This document shows positions 7,157 to 7,666 of a stretch of DNA of 24,186 bases, piece by piece. Each line of letters begins with the position of its first letter. Position 1 is the first letter of the stretch. Origin of the DNA: a virus; IMG/VR virus record IMGVR_UViG_3300006925_000147, positions 1 through 24,186 of that record; one strand, 5' to 3'. The translations under genes were made by a program, and so were the position numbers. The notes under the pieces were generated by a model. The model was not told where the DNA came from. It ran no database searches and was given only the letters and a program-made list of their open reading frames with translations.

Positions 7157-7402
7157 ATGAACAGCATGCAAGTGGCCATTGACAACATGATCGATGAGAT
7201 CAAGAAGCCTGTAGACCCAGAAGCTGGAGGGTCAGCCAGAAAAGCAGAATTACAATCAATTAAACAAACAGCCATCGACTGCAAAGAGCTCATCATTGAG
7301 CGCCAGAAGCTGGAGCAGATGGTAAAACAATTAAGAGACAATGGCCAAATCGAAGAAGACAAAGACTACTCAGGAGGATTCGCAGAGCGATTCTCAAAGT
7401 AA
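7157..7402 (+). CDS. Small coiled-coil protein, unknown function (81 aa)
   Basis: Starts MNSMQVAIDNMIDEIKKPVD and ends DYSGGFAERFSK. Residues about 30-60 (AELQSIKQTAIDCKELIIER onward) form a probable coiled coil. I chose the ATG at 7157 because codons upstream overlap the end of the GroES-like gene and read as Ser/Thr-rich out-of-frame sequence; starts at 7076 (ATG) or a TTG at 7025 are alternatives. The product is charged and soluble. The family is not recognised; small coiled-coil proteins beside packaging genes can be small terminases or head proteins, but there is no DNA-binding motif to support that. Confidence 0.6.
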   Translation: MNSMQVAIDNMIDEIKKPVDPEAGGSARKAELQSIKQTAIDCKELIIERQKLEQMVKQLRDNGQIEEDKDYSGGFAERFSK

Positions 7403-7496
7403 GCAGTACTGGTGGAAGAACATGACCATTACCGAAGATGACGTAAAGAGATATAAGTTCTGGGAGGACATGTGGAACGGTGAGTATGAAAGCTAA
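7341..7496 (+). CDS. Short overlapping gene, unknown function (51 aa)
   Basis: A complete ORF in a different frame from the preceding gene, overlapping its last 62 bases. It starts MAKSKKTKTTQEDSQSDSQS and ends FWEDMWNGEYES. The C-terminal half is rich in aromatic and acidic residues (KQYWWKN, RYKFWEDMW), unlike a chance frame, and extends 94 bases past the neighbour's stop in a segment with no other gene. Its stop is one base before the tRNA-like element. I do not recognise a family. Confidence 0.55.
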   Translation: MAKSKKTKTTQEDSQSDSQSKQYWWKNMTITEDDVKRYKFWEDMWNGEYES

Positions 7497-7497
7497 T

Positions 7498-7577
7498 CGG
7501 CGAGTATCTCCTCAAGCTTATACCTTGTAGAAAGAGTAATCGGTCACATGCGGGTTCAAGCCCCGCCTCGCCGACCA
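7498..7577 (+). tRNA. Non-canonical tRNA-like element with encoded CCA
   Basis: A perfect seven-bp acceptor stem (CGGCGAG 7498-7504 with CTCGCCG 7567-7573), discriminator A, encoded CCA (7575-7577), and a textbook T arm (GCGGG-TTCAAGC-CCCGC). The 45 bases between do not fold into normal D and anticodon arms: there is no GG in a D loop and no five-bp stem with a seven-base loop. The best hairpin is CAAG-CTTATAC-CTTG (7513-7527), which would present a UAU-like anticodon (Ile) but leaves no D arm and a 21-base variable region. Either a degenerate tRNA or a tRNA mimic whose acceptor and T arms are maintained. Confidence 0.55.
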
Positions 7578-7578
7578 T

Positions 7579-7652
7579 GCCCTCGTAGCTCAGCTGGATA
7601 GAGCATTTGCCTTCTAAGCAAACGGTCACAGGTTCGAATCCTGTCGGGGGTA
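7579..7652 (+). tRNA. tRNA-Arg (anticodon UCU)
   Basis: A complete cloverleaf: acceptor GCCCTCG/CGGGGGT, D arm GCTC/GAGC, anticodon stem TTTGC/GCAAA with loop CTTCTAA (anticodon TCT at loop positions 3-5), T arm ACAGG-TTCGAAT-CCTGT and discriminator A. CCA is not encoded, unlike in the preceding element one base away. It decodes AGA, a codon used freely in the phage genes around it, so it probably supplements the host pool late in infection. Confidence 0.95.
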
Positions 7653-7666
7653 CAAATTAAATAATC

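Follow-up and report, generated by a model that had tools for sequence, protein, structure and literature searches.

Arm order is treated as fixed in known tRNAs, and to our knowledge Allo-tRNAs, tRNA-Sec and tRNA-Pyl all keep it. The permuted tRNA genes of algae and archaea are circularly permuted at the level of the gene and give a canonical mature tRNA, and the tRNA-like domain of tmRNA combines an acceptor and a T arm without a D stem. In the core of a canonical tRNA, base 9 contacts the 12-23 pair, base 45 contacts 10-25 and base 21 contacts 8-14 next to 15-48.

The window analyzed here is the whole 24,186-base virus contig IMGVR_UViG_3300006925_000147, which carries genes for a large terminase, a portal, virion proteins and an endolysin. 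Its terminase is 40–48% identical to those of Flavobacterium phages and one unclassified Caudoviricetes record, and close relatives of the phage are present in IMG/VR. At positions 7498–7577 (plus strand, as for all window features below) lies an element that, judged from comparison with its relatives, is very probably a functional tRNA-Ile(UAU) reading AUA, in a phage class with canonical positions 10–21 placed 3′ of the anticodon arm. It sits one base 5′ of an ordinary tRNA-Arg(UCU) (7579–7653; Rfam, 70.6 bits), which ARAGORN called while missing the element. A 51-codon open reading frame without a PHROG match (7341–7496) has its stop one base before the element. The first-pass annotation had drawn the outer parts correctly: 7498–7577 are the exact limits, the acceptor stem is a perfect 7-bp helix (CGGCGAG, 7498–7504, with CTCGCCG, 7567–7573), the T arm at 7550–7566 is ideal (stem strands GCGGG and CCCGC, loop TTCAAGC), the discriminator A73 (7574) is followed by an encoded CCA (7575–7577) and the adjacent tRNA-Arg is normal. 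The total length, about 77 nt before CCA, is also normal. The encoded CCA was discarded as a mark of the class, being incidental and found in only 17 of 115 UAU or GAU relatives.

The center of the element had been read as lacking both a standard anticodon arm and the GG of a D-loop, and here the first reading did not hold. Positions 7513–7527 form a 4-bp stem (CAAG with CTTG) closed by a 7-nt loop, CTTATAC, with U33, the anticodon UAU (7519–7521) and A37; a GG is present at 7542–7543, but 3′ of the anticodon arm rather than 5′. Only 8 nt separate the acceptor and anticodon arms, with no D stem or D-loop there. The Rfam tRNA model (RF00005) spans the element end to end at 28.5 bits, below its gathering cut-off of 29 (E = 7.3e-6 in the record), and no covariance model returned the ordinary tRNA fold that had been named as evidence against the annotation. 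In the Rfam alignment, the acceptor and T arm fit and 7513–7527 is the anticodon arm with UAU, while 15 D-arm model positions are replaced by four bases and an 18-nt insert follows the anticodon arm. Folding of the single sequence is weak, at z = −1.69 and with 13 of 200 shuffles doing equally well; we regard the element as beyond chance because of the Rfam E value and, above all, covariation across relatives. None of the other Rfam 15 families reached its gathering score on the element. YrlA (Y RNA; 20.4 bits against a cut-off of 69) was rejected, as the match consists of the T arm and neighboring tRNA only. ARAGORN and cmscan made no tmRNA call on the window, and no tag reading frame was present.

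Relatives were collected with patterns based on the scaffold acceptor(7) - TAT[AC][CT]CCT - hairpin(4+7+4) - NN-GAAAG[AG][GT]TA[AG][CT][CT]GG - 5 to 7 nt - T arm - acceptor - N73. Scans of IMG/VR returned at least 120 stretches for the hairpin plus T arm, at least 120 for the scaffold lacking U at base 34, and 33 for U34 followed by C, G or U at 35. Removal of two false matches without stems (L342 and L345) from 184 unique pattern matches left 182 elements, mostly from phages and mostly found by patterns that preset the scaffold. Of 171 unique elements with a 6-nt spacer, 148 remained after duplicates in acceptor, hairpin and T stem were removed; these formed the ungapped alignment A1, from which the covariance model R1 was derived. 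R1 matches 7498–7574 at 92.4 bits, the window element itself being one row of the model. Because its matches at 28–34 bits include ordinary tRNAs (L391, L395 and L406), weak hits were not counted. The phage L002, with 92% terminase identity to the window, carries the element upstream of the same tRNA-Arg. Among 61 terminase-relative loci with enough upstream DNA, the tRNA-Arg is preceded by an ordinary tRNA-Ile(UAU) in 6, by tRNA-Met(CAU) in 15 and by no further ARAGORN tRNA in 38; the new type occurs there in L002 and, in divergent form, in L022, and none of these loci has the new type together with an ordinary tRNA-Ile. Another phage closely related to that of the window has a new-type tRNA-Ile accompanied by two ordinary tRNA-Arg(UCU) genes (L083:9095 and 9556, minus strand).

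Covariation strongly supports a common structure for the relatives, in which a normal acceptor stem is followed by a 4-bp anticodon arm enclosed in a 3-bp helix, then by a stretch matching canonical D-arm positions 10–20a and finally by a T arm. In A1, 98.3% of cells are paired, versus 63.8% after shuffling, and the covariation score is 0.904, versus 0.232 for shuffled columns and at most 0.155 for slid partners. Eighteen of the 20 pairs change on both sides, every helix contains such pairs, and RNAalifold, unaided, produced the identical 19-pair fold. The acceptor has 7 bp, all seven covarying over the 148 relatives, with N73 unpaired. Broken acceptor stems in relatives, which the first-pass annotation had named as counting against it, are not the rule: 154 of the 182 elements pair 7/7, 23 pair 6/7 and five pair fewer. 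The T stem has 5 bp with a 7-nt T-loop and covaries, including a compensated C-G to T-A change in L002. U8 and A9 (7505–7506) are invariant columns of A1 that were preset in the search patterns. The core helix P2, supported by pairing counts, covariation and RNAalifold, joins CTC at 7508–7510, the equivalent of canonical 23–25, to GAG at 7534–7536, the equivalent of 10–12; it is paired in 182 of 182 elements and fully Watson–Crick in 181. The pattern allowed 16 combinations, of which CCC/GGG (62), CTC/GAG (60), ACC/GGT (59) and the wobble form CTC/GGG (1) occur, and divergent members outside the pattern add the complementary forms CCG/CGG, CGC/GCG, CAC/GTG and CGG/CCG. Counting against the tRNA reading, pair 11-24 is purine-pyrimidine, the reverse of its orientation in ordinary elongator tRNAs, T13 and T22 are unpaired, and the anticodon stem stops at four Watson–Crick pairs. 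The anticodon stem covaries, with 44 distinct 5′ strands, and its four Watson–Crick pairs are flanked by T27 and mostly T43; the 7-nt loop has U33 and a purine at 37, which is A in 181 of 182. C32 and U33 were preset in most search patterns, and with the hairpin left free 13 of 13 true matches still had CT.

The anticodons of the 182 elements are GAU (59), UAU (56), ACG (27), UCU (25), CAU (6), CCU (6), UCG (2) and CCG (1), in proportions that reflect the search patterns. All are of Ile type (GAU, UAU and CAU) or Arg type (UCU, UCG, ACG, CCU and CCG). Viral-contig scans for A or C at base 36, for G or T at base 35 and for NAG returned zero stretches each, and GCU and ACU were absent among the matches listed in the IMG/VR scan of base 34 other than U. 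That only Ile and Arg are served is a striking puzzle. The base after the GG, equivalent to canonical position 20, follows the same division: it is A in 61 of 61 Arg-type elements and T in 119, G in one and C in one of the 121 Ile-type elements, and T (7544) in the window element. Across the 171 equal-length elements, this base is as informative about the Ile/Arg class as anticodon base 35, at the highest value possible, and the pattern persists in 62 representatives below 80% identity; Fisher and CMH values are not literal probabilities here because the 182 elements share ancestry. A scan with T20 preset and the hairpin free gave 15 matches, two of which lacked stems and were dropped; the 13 true matches were all GAU, UAU or CAU. 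Base 73 is A in all 121 Ile-type members, CAU included. Among ordinary tRNAs encoded in the same loci, 150 of 152 tRNA-Arg have A20, versus 1 of 73 tRNA-Ile. The bacterial identity sets given in PMC9976931 are A20, C35, U/G36 and A/G/U73 for Arg and A73, U20, A35, U36 and A37 for Ile. By this comparison, the synthetase identity bases of the new type match the anticodon with one divergent exception, a UCU member in a Saccharibacteria metagenome-assembled genome (L393, G008:C185:2181-2264) that has T at the position-20 equivalent and T73 and is the only departure seen from the A20 rule.

The new form replaces the ordinary tRNA of the same anticodon in tRNA-rich loci. In 93 loci with at least eight ARAGORN tRNAs, the loci being stretches rather than whole genomes, an ordinary tRNA of the same anticodon lies beside the new type in 4 of 99 instances, versus 202 of 645 locus–anticodon combinations without the new type. 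The redundant instances are GAU (3 of 46 loci) and CAU (1 of 4 loci), with none for any other anticodon. The crAss-like phage tikkala has a tRNA cluster without an ordinary tRNA-Ile(GAU) and with a new-type one, and the analyzed stretch of bajarodcaudo virus 1 has no ordinary tRNA-Ile and a new-type UAU. For the Samistivirus Mildred21, a Streptomyces phage with a single annotated tRNA-Arg (CCU), R1 adds new-type Arg(ACG) and Arg(UCG), a divergent Arg(UCU) and an Ile(GAU), the last being redundant because an ordinary Ile(GAU) is also annotated. The two tRNAs of the window read AUA and AGA, which account for 77 of 366 Ile codons and 138 of 295 Arg codons, respectively, in the 23 window open reading frames counted.

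These patterns bear on whether the element might be a tRNA mimic or decoy that is charged or bound but takes no part in decoding, such as one that soaks up an anticodon nuclease. In the subgroup of the window, variation is concentrated in the acceptor and T stems, and the core beyond the searched hairpin hardly varies (the hairpin itself being preset by the pattern); only Ile and Arg are represented, and both points would suit a mimic. Against it stand the many anticodons, each with matching synthetase identity bases, the almost invariant A37 and the displacement of same-anticodon ordinary tRNAs, and we consider this explanation very unlikely. The charged mimic suggested in the first-pass annotation is retained in one half: the element is probably charged, whereas its anticodon, its identity bases and the exclusion of same-anticodon partners point to real tRNAs for Ile and Arg rather than to a mimic.

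To locate the D segment of the tRNA-Ile(UAU) proposed here, a profile of canonical positions 10–20a was trained on 666 ordinary tRNAs from the loci of the relatives. Of these ordinary tRNAs, 649 of 666 gave the best match at column 10. For 177 of the 182 elements of the new type it lay at column 37, downstream of the anticodon arm, and the best score averaged 8.8 bits against −0.6 for the runner-up. In the window element the match starts at 7534 and the transposed D-loop spans 7538–7546, with A14 at 7538, R15 at 7539 and G18 and G19 at 7542–7543. A14 is invariant in the new type. R15 and the base at position 48 (T, 7549), which we take to be the Levitt pair, covary as such a pair does, the 182 combinations being A-T (146), G-C (20), G-G (9), A-C (6) and G-T (1). 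On this reading, the chain runs 1–9, 22–25, anticodon arm, 10–13, 14–21, 48, T arm.

This order also argues against a tRNA that simply lacks the D arm, as animal mitochondrial tRNA-Ser does, its variable loop being long and D-loop function absent. The Rfam alignment could be read in that way, since most of the D arm is missing from it and 18 extra nt follow the anticodon arm, and mitochondrial tRNAs without a D arm are functional (PMC4013460). The 18-nt insert is not filler, however: it reads A14-R15-YY-GG-N20 like a canonical D-loop, has the position-20 identity base and the 15-48 covariation, and carries the second strand of the covarying core helix. A D-armless tRNA with a filler insert was rejected after the identity-base and 10–20a profile tests, and we hold it to be very unlikely. 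The intact T arm, CCA and 3′ acceptor strand would also fit an attP core, in which the phage keeps a host tRNA gene's 3′ end for attachment, or a tRNA in decay, and a decayed copy (L394) exists elsewhere. As the first-pass annotation had held for decay, this explanation is almost certainly wrong. It is refuted by the covariation seen in the core helix and in the acceptor's 5′ strand: over 148 elements the acceptor, on both of its strands, varies with compensation, as do the T, anticodon and core helices. The class is also widespread in many phages, and the window lies among virion genes with no integrase in the 10 proteins scanned. We conclude that this is a real and selected class of unusually wired tRNAs, and most probably a functional one.

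Members of this class were found in marine relatives of the window phage, in crAss-like and other gut phages and in Microbacterium phages; Streptomyces phages made up 79 of the 83 records matched in one search. All 24 large metagenomic virus records searched have the element, having been chosen for it. Thirteen elements lie in metagenome-assembled bacterial genomes, and of two such contigs checked, an endolysin-like gene is present in one and a helicase that matches phage families in the other; a phage origin of these elements is likely. Among 296 Bacteroidota genomes, the single one with the element was the seed picked for having it, and one query of plasmids found none. ARAGORN overlaps only 3 of 263 new-type copies, and published phage records mostly leave the genes blank or under other names, so counts of phage tRNAs are too low. 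In Mildred21 (NC_042008.1), where the four genes lie at 91367-91442, 86379-86453, 94857-94933 and 73703-73779, Arg(UCG) is annotated as tRNA-Phe(gaa) and Arg(UCU) as tRNA-OTHER, and Arg(ACG) and Ile(GAU) have no annotation; the new-type Ile(GAU) of phage EGole is annotated as tRNA-Leu.

Several further observations were made in these loci. In two Samistivirus phages a new-type Ile(GAU) starts about 14 bases after the end of a (tRNA) nucleotidyltransferase gene (L383:23167-23688 and L211:1960-2481), whose product may be a matched CCA-adding enzyme, and the Mildred21 gene for a Ro-like RNA-binding protein lies within the tRNA region (L383:30769-32421). L394 (G006:C52:902-987) is an apparently decayed copy with a disrupted core helix, T stem and anticodon loop but an acceptor that still pairs. 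In one tRNA cluster (L126:1717-8367), several duplicates of Ile(GAU), Asp, Asn and Cys occur together with two divergent members of the new type. Seven phage tRNA-Ile(UAU) genes with a normal D arm (L094:5642-5735, minus strand; L095:12861-12954; L101:1266-1361; L112:12285-12379; L140:13587-13682; L156:11309-11404; L159:3479-3573) share the AAGCTTATACCTT hairpin with the element, as preset by the search, and have a long variable arm, unexpected on a tRNA-Ile, with a 7-nt loop containing GAT.

Taken as a class, the elements are likely to represent a second phage tRNA architecture, in which the same L-shaped core is reached through another chain order in many phage lineages, for IleRS and ArgRS only, and which is charged and used by ordinary bacterial ribosomes. 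The usual L could be kept because the new junctions (9 to 22, 45 to 10 and 21 to 48) join bases that are neighbors in the canonical three-dimensional core. The window element would be transcribed and finished at CCA, folded through these junctions and charged by the host IleRS (Arg members by ArgRS), and would then decode on the host ribosome, topping up the supply for AUA. The wiring may have been favored for evading host enzymes that need a normal D arm to attack or edit a tRNA, although this is a guess.

Literature searches, in which subscription papers and bioRxiv preprints were mostly outside reach and absence is no proof, found no published phage tRNA with a transposed D-loop, and the words 'phage' and 'virus' do not occur in the available text of a review of non-canonical tRNAs (PMC7609411). 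This large phage family for Ile and Arg only is apparently undescribed. Like the Allo-tRNAs, tRNA-Sec and tRNA-Pyl covered in that text, it is a natural departure from the standard cloverleaf. The new type resembles D-arm-lacking mitochondrial tRNA-Ser in having no D arm between the acceptor and anticodon arms, but it keeps the GG and D-stem strands elsewhere, has a normal length, is phage-borne and serves Ile and Arg only. In contrast to tmRNA, the element has a real anticodon arm and neither a long insert nor a tag reading frame. Permuted tRNA genes likewise have a changed segment order in the gene; in the new type, however, the acceptor strands are at both ends, and only 10–21 has moved, the 3′ half not preceding the 5′ half. 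With canonical tRNA-Ile and tRNA-Arg (RF00005) it shares the 7-bp acceptor, A73 (in Ile), TTCRA T arm, 7-nt anticodon loop with U33 and A37, U8-A9, GG D-loop motif and identity bases at positions 20 and 73, and it differs in having 10–21 after the anticodon arm and a 3-bp core helix around that arm. A natural, widespread class in which the core is kept and the wiring changed would separate topology from shape in the tRNA plan, and would offer clean tests of recognition by IleRS, ArgRS, EF-Tu and the ribosome and perhaps an orthogonal tRNA scaffold.
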